Shown piece after piece: positions 9,025 through 23,618 of a stretch of 43,201 bases of DNA. The stretch spans positions 1-43,201 of the forward strand of contig CAMBPQ010000024.1 in the NCBI GenBank assembly GCA_945869735.1, read 5' to 3'. The notes under the pieces were generated by a model. The model saw only the letters and a program-made list of their open reading frames with translations. It did no database searches and was not told where the DNA came from. The stretch's first letter is position 1. Each line of letters starts with the position of its first letter. The DNA is from Planctomicrobium piriforme. GTDB lineage: Bacteria; Planctomycetota; Planctomycetia; Pirellulales; UBA1268. A program made the translations under genes and the position numbers.

Positions 9025-9366
9025 AGCCAGAGGTATCGCTTGGCTGCCGGGCTTGTTTCACGCCTGCAACGCCATCCCGGCCGTTGCAGGCTGCCGGTCA
9101 GCACCGTATCGATGCCGCCCGTATTCCCCGCGCTCGCGCTTGGGGCTTCTTGACGGGAGGCACACGCTCCCGATCGTGAGGAGCCGGTCGGAGGCACGCG
9201 CAGACGCCGGGGAATCTTTTCGACTCACAAGCACCGCCCCGGCGGCCAAGCGAGCATCCCGTAGCAAAATCCCCCGGCGGCGAGCATGTCACCGACCGGT
9301 GAACCAATCCGGTATCAAATCAATGCCGCCCGTATTCCCCGCACTCGCGCTTGGGGCTTCTTGACG
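9025..9366 (-). repeat. Interspersed repeat family B, copy 2 (longest copy)
   Basis: The 497-bp gap between the DUF1570 gene and transketolase (9003-9499) is mostly this repeat. It holds a hairpin module (stem 9062-9071 with 9082-9091, 10 bp) and two 44-bp direct repeats (9112-9155 and 9323-9366) that differ at one base. Between them lies a core (9156-9322) containing the reverse complement of GACCGGCTCCTCACGATCGG at 9170-9189. The core and both flanking repeats recur in inverse orientation at 23401-23618. On the minus strand the direct repeat can be read as SPKRERG, a short peptide pattern I recall from many small hypothetical planctomycete ORFs, but no convincing gene is present. Confidence 0.85.
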
Positions 9367-9374
9367 ATAGGCGC

Positions 9375-9499: not shown

Positions 9500-11560
9500 A
9501 TGTCCACCGCCGCACCCCGCGCCCCTCACGCCACCGACCTCGACCGCCTCGCAATCGACACGATCCGTACGCTTTCGATGGACGCCGTCGAGGCGGCGAA
9601 GAGCGGCCACCCCGGCACGCCGATGGCGCTGGCACCCGTGGCGTTCACCGTTTGGAAGGACTTCCTCCGTTACGACCCGGCCGATCCCCAGTGGCCCAAT
9701 CGTGACCGCTTCGTGCTCTCCTGCGGGCACGCGTCGATGCTTCTCTATTCGCTGATCCACCTCGCGGGGATCCGTCGCGCGAACGGCACTCCCGCCGTGT
9801 CGCTCGACGAGATCAAGAAGTTTCGCCAACTCGACAGCGTCTGCGCCGGCCATCCCGAGCATCACATGACCGCCGGCATCGAAACGACCACCGGCCCGCT
9901 CGGCCAGGGCTGCGGCAACTCCGTCGGCATGGCGATGGCCTCGAAGTGGCTGGCTGCCCACTACAACAGGCCCGGCCACGTCGTCTTCGACTACGACACC
10001 TACGTGCTCTGTAGCGACGGCGATCTCATGGAGGGGGTGGCGTCGGAGGCAGCGTCGATCGCCGGGCATCTCGGCCTGGCGAATCTCTGCTGGATCTATG
10101 ACGACAACTCGATCACGATCGAGGGCGAGACGCATCTCGCCTTTACCGAGGACGTGGGTCGGCGATTCGAGGGTCTCGGGTGGCGGATCGAGCGGGTCGC
10201 CGATGCCAACGACACGGCCGCGCTGCGGAAAGCACTCGAAGCCTTCAAGAGTGAGCAGGGGAAGCCCACGCTCGTGATCGTGAAGAGCGTGATCGGCTAC
10301 GGGGCGCCCAAGAAGGCGGGCTCTCACGAGGCGCACGGCGCGCCCCTCGGTGCCGAGGAGATCAAGGGGGCCAAGCAGGCGTATGGCTGGCCCATCGACG
10401 AGTCGTTCCGCGTGCCAGCCGAGGTGCCGGCGCATTTTGCACGTTCGCTCGGTGTCCGCGGCGCGCAGGGCAACGACGCTTGGAAGAAGATCGTGGCGGA
10501 TCTCGCAAAGACCGATGCGGCCCTGTCGGCCGAACTCGGCGACTTCCTCGCCGATAGGCTTCCAGCCGGCTGGGATAAGCAGATTCCCTGCTTCCCCGCC
10601 GATGCCAAGGGGCTCGCGAGCCGTGTGTCGAGCGGCAAGGTGATCCAGGGGATCAGCGCCGGCGTGCCGTGGTTCCTCGGCGGCTCGGCCGACCTCGCAC
10701 CGTCGACGATGACGCTCGTGCCCGGCGCCGGTGACTACGGACACGGCTCCTACGGCGGCCGCAACTTCCACTTCGGCATCCGTGAGCATGGCATGGCATC
10801 CGCCTGCAACGGCATGGCGCTCTCGGGCCTGCGTCCCTACTGTGCCACGTTCTTCGTGTTCTTCGATTACCTGAAGCCCGCCCTGCGGCTCTCGGCGATC
10901 GGCAACCTGGGCGTGATCTACGTGCTCACGCACGACTCGATCGGCCTCGGCGAGGACGGCCCGACCCACCAGCCGATCGAACAGTTGGCCAGCGCCCGCG
11001 CGGTGCCTGGCCTGTCGGTCTTCCGCCCGGGCGACGCCAACGAGGTAGTCGAAACGTATCGCGTCGTGATGGCGCGCGTCGACCGGCCAGCCGTGATCGT
11101 GCTCTCGCGGCAGAACCTTCCCACGCTCGACCGCGCGGCTGGCTTCGGCTCGGCGGCGGGCACTGCCAAGGGGGCCTACGTTCTCAAGGAGGCCGCCAAT
11201 GGCAAGCCCGACTGCATCCTCATCGGCACCGGCAGCGAGGTGCAACTCTGCCTCGACGCCGCCGCAAAACTCGCCGGCGACGGCGTGCACGCCCGCGTCG
11301 TGAGCATGCCGAGTTGGGACCTCTTCGAGGAGCAGGACGCCGCCTACCGCGAGAGCGTGCTCCCGGCGGCCGTCACGGCCCGAGTGGCCTGCGAGGCTGC
11401 CTGCGGCTTTGGCTGGGAGCGGTGGCTCGGCAGCCGCGGGCTGTTCGTGGGCATGAAGGGCTTTGGCGCGTCGGGTCCCGCCCCGAAACTCTACGAGCAC
11501 TTCGGAATCACGACCGATGGTATCGTCGCCGCCGCGAAACGGTCACTCGCGAGTAAGTGA
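9500..11560 (+). CDS. tkt: Transketolase
   Basis: The 686-residue protein is a thiamine-diphosphate enzyme that moves two-carbon ketol units between pentose-phosphate and glycolytic sugars. Family marks include AAKSGHPGTPMALAPVA near the N-terminus, HASMLLYSLIHL, and TTGPLGQGCGNSVGMA. The thiamine-diphosphate motif begins GDGDLMEGVASEAASIAGHL (about residue 173), with the closing NSITIEG. The pyrimidine-binding domain has FHFGIREHGMASACNGMAL and THDSIGLGEDGPTHQPIEQL, with the catalytic His in the latter. The C-terminal domain ends normally, and length agrees with bacterial transketolases (about 660-690). It starts at the ATG at 9500, after AAGGAG. It stands alone between repeat-filled gaps and is probably monocistronic. 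Confidence 0.97.
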   Translation: MSTAAPRAPHATDLDRLAIDTIRTLSMDAVEAAKSGHPGTPMALAPVAFTVWKDFLRYDPADPQWPNRDRFVLSCGHASMLLYSLIHLAGIRRANGTPAVSLDEIKKFRQLDSVCAGHPEHHMTAGIETTTGPLGQGCGNSVGMAMASKWLAAHYNRPGHVVFDYDTYVLCSDGDLMEGVASEAASIAGHLGLANLCWIYDDNSITIEGETHLAFTEDVGRRFEGLGWRIERVADANDTAALRKALEAFKSEQGKPTLVIVKSVIGYGAPKKAGSHEAHGAPLGAEEIKGAKQAYGWPIDESFRVPAEVPAHFARSLGVRGAQGNDAWKKIVADLAKTDAALSAELGDFLADRLPAGWDKQIPCFPADAKGLASRVSSGKVIQGISAGVPWFLGGSADLAPSTMTLVPGAGDYGHGSYGGRNFHFGIREHGMASACNGMALSGLRPYCATFFVFFDYLKPALRLSAIGNLGVIYVLTHDSIGLGEDGPTHQPIEQLASARAVPGLSVFRPGDANEVVETYRVVMARVDRPAVIVLSRQNLPTLDRAAGFGSAAGTAKGAYVLKEAANGKPDCILIGTGSEVQLCLDAAAKLAGDGVHARVVSMPSWDLFEEQDAAYRESVLPAAVTARVACEAACGFGWERWLGSRGLFVGMKGFGASGPAPKLYEHFGITTDGIVAAAKRSLASK

Positions 11561-11565
11561 CGCTC

Positions 11566-11724
11566 GATCTCATTCGACTTACGTGGAACGCCGGCTCGCG
11601 GGCGGCAAAAGTCTCGTCGCTGAGGGCCGCGGCGGCCCGACGCTCCTCGAGCGTTCGCCGACCCCCTTGCCTACCTCCTCCAAGATGCCATCTCGCCGCT
11701 CCACCGAAGGCAGATGCGATCGAG
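11566..11724 (+). repeat. Interspersed repeat family A, copy 1
   Basis: A 159-bp repeat starts 6 bp after the transketolase stop. It matches 14005-14163 along its full and equal length and matches 11940-12074 in inverted orientation. Shared blocks are CATTCGACTTACGTGGAACG at the left end, GGCGGCAAAAGTCT, CGAGCGTTCGCCGACCCCCT in the middle, and CCATCTCGCCGCTCCACC at the right. The minus strand contains an open frame through it, but the frame runs into the neighbouring transposase remnant out of register and has no gene features. Confidence 0.88.
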
Positions 11725-11736
11725 TGCGCTTTCGGG

Positions 11737-11938
11737 TTACGTGGAGCGGTATCCGCAGTGCCTGAAACAGTTGCGGCACTCGTCCTCGGTGAACTTGTCG
11801 AGCGGGTCACCGCAGAGCGACCAGAGTGCATCGACGGTCCTTGTTGAGCTCCCGACGCTCTTGCTTCATACGGCGCACCCACGACTCACTTCCATCAAAC
11901 TTCGTCGCAACCTCGCGTGTGCTGCGACCTCTGTCGCA
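11737..11938 (-). pseudogene. IS630-type transposase remnant with internal deletion
   Basis: Two pieces of an IS630-family transposase are joined here on the minus strand in different frames. Piece one (about 11938-11840) reads RGRSTREVATKFDGSESWVR then RMKQERREL, the N-terminal helix-turn-helix of the family, lacking its first 20 or so residues. Piece two (11838-11737) reads [20 protein letters not shown] then [13 protein letters not shown] and a TAA stop, the usual transposase C-terminus. The central catalytic part with the DDE residues is missing. The remnant is flanked directly by inverted copies of repeat family A (11566-11724 and 11940-12074). It cannot encode a functional transposase. 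Confidence 0.78.
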
Positions 11939-11939
11939 C

Positions 11940-12074
11940 GCGGCGAGATGGCACCTGGGAGGAAGGGAGGCAAGGGGGTCGGCGAACGCTCGAGGAGCCT
12001 TGGGCGTATCCTCGACCCGGCGACGAGACTTTTGCCGCCCCCGAGCCGGCGTTCCACGTACGTTGAATGCGCTC
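11940..12074 (-). repeat. Interspersed repeat family A, copy 2 (inverted, shortened)
   Basis: This is the inverted counterpart of 11566-11724. Shared sequence runs from GCGGCGAGATGGCA through GGGGGTCGGCGAACGCTCG and TTTTGCCGCC to CCGGCGTTCCACGTA. About 24 bp at the end nearest the transposase remnant are missing relative to the other two copies. Together with copy 1 it forms long imperfect arms around the remnant, in the gap between the 3' ends of transketolase and the sigma-factor partner gene. Confidence 0.85.
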
Positions 12075-12126
12075 TAGCTCGGCGCCCCATGGCACGGCGA
12101 TCATGCCACCGGAGGTGGCGCAGGGA

Positions 12127-13839: not shown

Positions 13840-14004
13840 CAGTACTACGTCGGCGGGTGCAAGAAGGTTCGGTGTTCCCGGCAGGGCTTCCGGCCGTCGA
13901 CTCGACCCCGATGGGCGTCCGCAGCCTGATTCCGCCGGGATTAGCTGTTGGTTCTCGTGCTTGAGTATAGCTACGGTCGCAGACCGGGGGCCGTCTGGGG
14001 ACTA
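13840..14004. other. Divergent upstream region of the sigma factor and permease genes, no gene seen
   Basis: The 382-bp gap 13840-14221 separates divergent genes and must hold promoters for both. Its first 165 bp show no convincing reading frame. I could not identify a bipartite ECF promoter with confidence. The rest of the gap is repeat family A copy 3 and a short leader ending in GCAGGAGT, the ribosome binding site of the permease gene. Confidence 0.5.
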
Positions 14005-14163
14005 GATCGCATTCGACTTACGTGGAACGCCGGCTCGGGGGCGGCAAAAGTCTTGTCGCCGGGGCGAGGATAGGCCCAAGGCTCCCCGAGCGTTCGCCGA
14101 CCCCCTTGCCTCCCTCCTCCAAGCTGCCATCTCGCCGCTCCACCAAAGGCGGATGCGCTCGAG
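14005..14163 (+). repeat. Interspersed repeat family A, copy 3
   Basis: This 159-bp copy is collinear with 11566-11724 and also matches the inverted copy at 11940-12074. It ends 58 bp before the permease start, so unlike the other copies it lies in a 5' intergenic region and could affect the permease transcript. No transposase remnant is next to it. Confidence 0.88.
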
Positions 14164-23400: not shown

Positions 23401-23618
23401 CCGCCACGAAGCCCCTAGCGCGCGGGGAATAATGGTGGACTCGAAGCGGTGCCGGAATGGTTCGCCGGCGGTGGCATGCTCGCCGCCGGGGGATTTTGCT
23501 ACAGGATGCCCGCCTGGCCGACGGGGTGTCGCTCGTGAGTCGCAAACATTCACCGGCGTCTGCGCGTGCCCCCGACCGGCTCCTCACGATCGGATGCCGT
23601 CAGGAAGCCCCAAACGCT
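23401..23618 (+). repeat. Interspersed repeat family B, copy 3
   Basis: This copy fills most of the 292-bp gap between the 3' ends of leucyl aminopeptidase and oligoendopeptidase F. It contains the full core of copy 2 in inverse orientation, including GCTCGCCGCCGGGGGATTTT and GACCGGCTCCTCACGATCGG (23574-23593). Degenerate versions of the flanking direct repeat lie at both ends (23405-23438 and 23597-23617). The hairpin module of copies 1 and 2 is absent. Reading frames through it match those through copy 2 and are not credible genes. Confidence 0.83.

Follow-up and report, generated by a model that had tools for sequence, protein, structure and literature searches.

The window, that is, the whole stretch of 43,201 nucleotides that was analysed, holds three copies of a 162-nt repeat which, judged by its sequence, is a MITE. 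Two of them (A and B) lie in inverted orientation between a transketolase gene and a convergent conserved gene and enclose the remnant of an IS630 transposase. The third (C), which is 87% identical to copy A, stands by itself. The features are:

9500-11560, plus strand: transketolase gene (Pfam), left neighbour
11563-11724, plus strand: full-length MITE copy A (consensus for comparison, CTAGAGCGCATTCG...CAGATGCGCTCTAG); begins 2 bases past the transketolase stop codon, with its right end directly against that of IS630
11586-11674, minus strand: structured core of copy A (RNA strand), match to covariance model R1, 98.7 bits
11722-11723: GA dinucleotide common to the right ends of copy A and IS630, read from the sequence; compare the IS630 end TA-GAGCGCATTCGGG in L032
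11724-11843, minus strand: right terminal repeat of IS630 with codons for the transposase C-terminus; identity to C22:427-544 is 93% over 11726-11843
11840-11843: CTTG/CAAG microhomology at the internal IS630 deletion, where the matches to C22 and C11 overlap by 4 bases
11840-11939, minus strand: IS630 helix-turn-helix codons, 96% identical to C11:15918-16017
11940-12077, minus strand: MITE copy B, without the right-terminal 25 nt (lost with the IS630 left end); CTAG at the outer end
11966-12054, plus strand: structured core of copy B (RNA strand), R1 match, 96.2 bits
12127-13104, minus strand: right neighbour, a conserved gene to which Pfam gave no confident match
14002-14163, plus strand: MITE copy C, full length, between a sigma factor gene and a divergent gene
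14025-14113, minus strand: structured core of copy C (RNA strand), R1 match, 90.9 bits

The remnant between copies A and B amounts to ~216 nt of a doubly deleted IS630 transposase gene. When a transposase from a sister species was used as a tblastn query, residues 272-308 and 13-53 matched it; the helix-turn-helix and the C-terminal end are kept and the DDE core is deleted, so that it represents the remnant of an IS630 family member, with a Pfam HTH_23 match (E=0.0016) that falls below the curated cut-off. The CTTG overlap of the C22 and C11 matches is the signature of a microhomology deletion. At the junction with copy B, the interior sequence CTCGCCGC of the repeat meets IS630 codons, and the undeleted IS630 left end (C26) has CTCGCAGC there, a near-match of 8 bases. 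The initial annotation had described a deleted IS630 between inverted repeat copies at 11566-12074, and this arrangement is confirmed, with an exact span (11563-12077) that is slightly wider. It had also taken the two transposase pieces to be out of frame with each other. They do lie in different frames, but this state is partly native, since related IS630 genes of sister species are themselves spread over two frames around an A-run, as if frameshifted. Outside the repeats, the expected TA duplication is preserved on the right (CTAG, 12074-12077), 49 bases short of the convergent gene, but the left outer end has TC (CTCG, 11563-11566). Between copy A and IS630, the GA at 11722-11723 probably represents a former TA target duplication, TA being expected at this position. 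Another decayed IS630 helix-turn-helix was seen in L033 (1501-1740), fused in frame after an N-terminus resembling an addiction-module antitoxin (MASVSLRDLGLDRLSIEERPQLADAIW...); this join lies near a TGCGAYAGAGGTCGCA palindrome, the same palindrome as at the window junction. The window also holds a second repeat family (1-53, 9046-9372 and 23469-23593), with a CGTCAAGAAGCCCCAAGCGCGAGCGCGGGG-type palindrome and the neighbours CTCACGATCGG and GCCTGCAACG, which is found at many related loci as well.

The consensus of the 162-nt repeat, derived from 56 copies, has imperfect terminal inverted repeats, CTAGAGCGCATTCGACTTCCGTGGA and TCCACCAAAGGCAGATGCGCTCTAG, which match the ends of IS630 elements of the same genome and the same genus. 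An IS630 right end in the window's genome reads CTAGAGCGCATTCGGGTTACG (L032) and sister-species IS630 ends read CTAGAGCGCGTCTG and CTCGAGCGCATTCCGCCTACGTGTAGCGG; CTAGAGCGCRT is common to MITE and IS630 ends, and TACGTGTAGCG is shared by the sister MITE and the sister IS630 right end. Because the repeat carries IS630-type ends, the proposed link between it and IS630 is real, and its ability to exist independently is borne out by copy C, which has no IS630 nearby. As for an intact IS630 with the same ends, matching ends were found in sister species, where L169 spans ~1 kb from end to end, but the copies in the window's own genome are a handful of remnants, all decayed (C26, C22, C11, the window and a DDE_3 fragment at C5). 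The repeat is below 200 bp and has no coding capacity. A genome search with the repeat unit returned 42 places at E<=5e-29, the covariance model of its core at least 150, and 145 distinct copies were checked; this recurrence is far beyond chance. TA is present at both ends in 11 of the 12 copies listed from related MAGs, the remaining one having TC on the left, and has decayed to 62-67% among the 71 copies of the window's genome that retain both ends. In one sister MAG (records JAFMIU), nine copies have 0-2 mismatches over 162 nt and all different flanks, with CTAG on the left in nine out of nine and TAG or TAA on the right, which points to recent transposition into TA, mostly CTAG. Its ends, size and target site make the repeat an IS630/Tc1-mariner MITE, presumably moved in trans by IS630 transposase. 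A preference of IS630 for CTAG was reportedly described by Tenzen and Ohtsubo in 1991. The IS630 family (Tc1/mariner) has a transposase with a helix-turn-helix and a DDE domain, and its insertion into TA, with duplication of the latter, was established with ISY100 (PMC2170065). At several loci (L044, L048 and L050 on contigs C41, C10 and C8, and C46 in L329), two MITEs, the first of them truncated, are joined by the linker GTCAGGAAGCCCCAAGCGC...CTCCACGCCGCTGC in constant order, suggesting that this chimeric unit has been copied.

How the window locus arose may be envisaged as follows. IS630 transposase acting in trans would put the MITE into TA, preferably CTAG. Since an insertion into CTAG is bordered by CTAG on both sides, the inserted ends would themselves become targets, and one IS630 and two MITEs could have come to lie end to end within the short spacer that separates the two convergent genes. 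One microhomology deletion would have removed the middle of the transposase gene, and another the IS630 left end plus 25 nt of copy B. As far as the sequence can tell, two such deletions after nested insertion at CTAG ends are enough to explain the site. The initial annotation had favoured either a non-autonomous composite element, in which an IS630 bounded by inverted repeats would move as one unit, or a repeat that collects around old insertion sites. The symmetric layout at 11563-12077 would suit the former, and IS630 transposase would recognise the ends. However, the unit has no second copy, only separate partial matches; the sole other inverted pair (C36) encloses unrelated DNA and no IS630; and close pairs are little commoner than chance, with 6 pairs within 600 bp against ~4.2 expected at random for 150 core positions, while a handful of IS630 remnants stand against at least 145 repeats. 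A composite element is therefore highly improbable. The second proposal holds for the two IS630 remnants that abut a MITE end (window and C26) and not otherwise: clustering of repeats around IS630 was rejected on the disparity between remnants and repeats, and strong clustering of the copies among themselves on the number of close pairs.

The right-hand neighbour gene is present in all 21 of 21 sister species. Where the spacer at the transketolase junction could be recovered, it lacks the element in most sister species and is often very short, although a related element occupies it in G012 and a damaged one in G005. Because these spacers have diverged, an exact base-for-base empty site was not recovered. 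The site of copy C had no match among the sister species.

A search of relatives revealed that repeat positions 27-113, a core of ~88 nt, recur across genera, often without the ends. On the MITE minus strand the core consists of AGGCGAGGGGGTCGGCGAACGCTCGAGGAGC, a variable hairpin and GCGACGAGACTTTTGCCGCCCCCGAGCC, and folds as a long hairpin with internal loops, to which some copies add an optional extra hairpin. The consensus folding energy is -14.9 on this strand versus -6.7 on the opposite one. In an unguided MAFFT alignment of 50 sequences, both-side changes were found in 10 of 28 pairs, compared to 2.7 in shuffles; of 500 shuffles, none came up to the real alignment on any measure, and every measure was lower for slid structures. 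Thus, compensatory base changes exceed the shuffle control, in keeping with a structured RNA. As two apical registers were not aligned to each other, counts for the apical helix are rough, and the both-side changes of pair 42-48 are owed largely to this misregister, which affects neither the arms nor pair 29-62 (G-C in 45 sequences and C-G in 5). The apical stem may be replaced entirely with pairing kept, as in GGGCCG/CGGCCC, GTGGCCG/CGGCCAC, ATGGCCG/CGGCCAT, GGGACG/CGTCCC and the long TGAAAATGGCC/GGCCATTTTCA. Pair 19-71 is G.U in 48 of the 50 sequences and would be C.A on the other strand; read in this way from the alignment, the nearly invariant G.U marks which strand folds.

Known classes did not account for the core. 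Rfam covariance models (Rfam 15) gave no match over it in the window and nine diverse loci. REP elements are defined as 20-40 bp palindromes tagged GTAG or CGTC (PMC3733652), whereas the core is an 88-nt hairpin whose consensus foot lacks the GTAG/CGTC tag. An integron attC site, suggested by the bulged hairpin and its variable tip, was rejected by inspection, as there are no attC core boxes and no arrays; likewise, an intrinsic terminator was dismissed upon inspection, since the T-run lies within the 3′ arm and not past the hairpin. A 21-mer of the core had no exact match in viral contigs.

Using strict filters, R1 matches were found in 32 of 196 genomes of the order, all of them in the window's family, and in one of 294 genomes of a phylum sample, namely, the window's own. 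Core copies without MITE ends occupy the same spacer of co-directional genes in different genomes: between DUF1553-type and DUF1501-type genes (L081, L123, L223), ppc and pfkA (L088, L211), dnaK and clpB (L154, L210), a PVC-type cytochrome gene and a GFO/IDH/MocA gene (L139, L160), and a TIM-barrel isomerase-like gene and a GFO/IDH/MocA gene (L214, L233), with gene names taken from reading the proteins and not from profile searches. In most of these pairs the distance to both genes is near-equal, the flanks are ~50-74% alike in the better ones, and compensated changes or the optional hairpin set the copies apart. The dnaK-clpB element is found in three genera (g1, g9 and g12), mostly after a shared dnaK 3′ region, is missing from this spacer in many other genomes and is apparently truncated in G009, which suggests that it is old within the family and not essential there. 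The dnaK 3′ region of three genera also has conserved tandem hairpins (CGCGAAATCGGCCATCC-ATGGCCCGATTTCGC and others), separate from the element and located upstream of clpB in L354, L361, L363, L364, L375 and L378. A paralogous DUF1553/DUF1501-type gene pair in L175, ~36-38% identical to its counterpart in L123, likewise has the element in its spacer, which suggests that the element was copied with this operon type or prefers it. The names under which the CAMCYH and CAMAVC MAGs (L123, L164 and others) were deposited, Candidatus Kuenenia stuttgartiensis and Planctomicrobium piriforme, look wrong (compare G029 and G040 of the window's family).

The orientation of the copies bears on whether the core acts as RNA or as DNA, i.e. 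as a protein binding site or a single-stranded hairpin. Single-stranded DNA also forms hairpins, G.T pairs included, and some REP elements are DNA binding sites (PMC2817692). On the other hand, among the 28 end-less copies in co-directional spacers of other genomes, the better-folding strand is sense to the upstream gene in 22 and antisense in 6 (a raw count that includes related genomes), and the apical stem and the optional hairpin vary in length and sequence with pairing kept, as in structured RNAs. We thus regard a DNA element as quite unlikely. In the window's own genome the sense bias is weak: out of 145 copies, 63 lie between convergent genes, 35 are sense and 24 antisense in co-directional spacers, and 9 lie between divergent genes.

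Several observations favour a purely selfish MITE, whose hairpin serves only transposition or tolerance at gene 3′ ends and whose copies do nothing for the host. By score cut-offs, 108 of the 145 copies have the left end, 85 the right, 71 both and 23 neither, so that 122 carry at least one IS630-type end, and the sister MAG testifies to recent movement. Spacers with the element are enriched among convergent gene pairs (with versus without: convergent 37/19, co-directional 39/118, divergent 5/26, at loci chosen for holding elements), and by analogy with BOX, RUP and SPRITE (PMC3049150), such enrichment is equally shown by tolerated parasites. Yet in the 71 own copies with both ends, the mean majority frequency reaches 0.97-0.98 in the arms, against 0.84-0.86 in the terminal repeats, 0.78 in the apical part and 0.62-0.67 at the TA. 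If copies simply decayed neutrally once inserted, arms and ends would suffer alike, and thus the arms appear to be constrained or homogenised; gene conversion among copies could mimic such constraint. In addition, end-less copies persist at the same operon spacers across genera with their pairing kept. Taken together, we find a purely selfish element unlikely.

We consider it probable that the repeat is an IS630-type MITE, nested at the window locus and spread by IS630, whose core is a candidate REP/ERIC-like RNA element of gene 3′ ends. Such a core would function within transcripts, both at 3′ ends and in the spacers of operons. It would most likely influence how stable the upstream message is or how it is processed, and this RNA function, rather than transposition, would keep the arms conserved. 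A more tentative scenario, possible but doubtful, starts from a structured RNA control element that belongs to a single planctomycete family and is maintained in operon spacers such as dnaK-clpB; it would have been captured by IS630 ends and, as a MITE, would then have reached well over 100 gene ends. Alternatively, the end-less copies may be domesticated MITEs.

The mobile part of the repeat is an additional IS630 MITE, closest to RUP, the 107-bp MITE of Streptococcus pneumoniae with IS630-Spn1-like ends; here, as for ERIC and NEMIS, the comparison is by described features and concerns how the elements work, not membership. Like the planctomycete repeat, RUP is short and non-coding, has ~100 copies, IS630-like ends and a TA target, and is found in or near IS elements and enriched between convergent genes (PMC2229807, PMC3049150). 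It belongs to another phylum, and an end-less, syntenic, covarying core is absent from its descriptions (PMC2229807, PMC3049150), whereas in the planctomycete repeat the core is better conserved than the ends. The enterobacterial ERIC/IRU (127 bp) shares terminal TA, a long stem-loop and intergenic location; it is co-transcribed and affects upstream mRNA in an orientation-dependent manner, and in Yersinia, the nearest tested parallel, it makes upstream transcripts less stable (PMC2229807). By comparison, the planctomycete repeat has an IS630 partner identified by its ends and an end-less form between housekeeping genes, and its role on mRNA is putative. Correia/NEMIS of Neisseria is likewise a MITE with terminal TA, has two size classes (~107 and 155 bp) set apart by an internal piece, and forms an RNA hairpin proposed as an RNase III substrate (PMC2229807); in the planctomycete repeat, the hairpin is internal and occurs without terminal repeats. 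No description of such an element in planctomycetes was found in the open-access literature. What is new is that a MITE is combined with a covarying core which, at conserved operon spacers, is also found without ends. The core itself is apparently a structured RNA candidate not described before: Rfam 15 lacks it, and in the genomes sampled it occurs in one Pirellulales family only.

Whether hairpin MITEs such as ERIC, NEMIS, RUP and BOX are parasites or host tools is a long-standing question. Because the same core occurs with and without transposon ends, in orthologous spacers as well as in recent insertions, this family makes it possible to measure selection on the RNA part separately from selection on the mobility part. 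If the core was indeed captured between IS630 ends, the transposase would distribute a ready-made RNA regulator across the genome.
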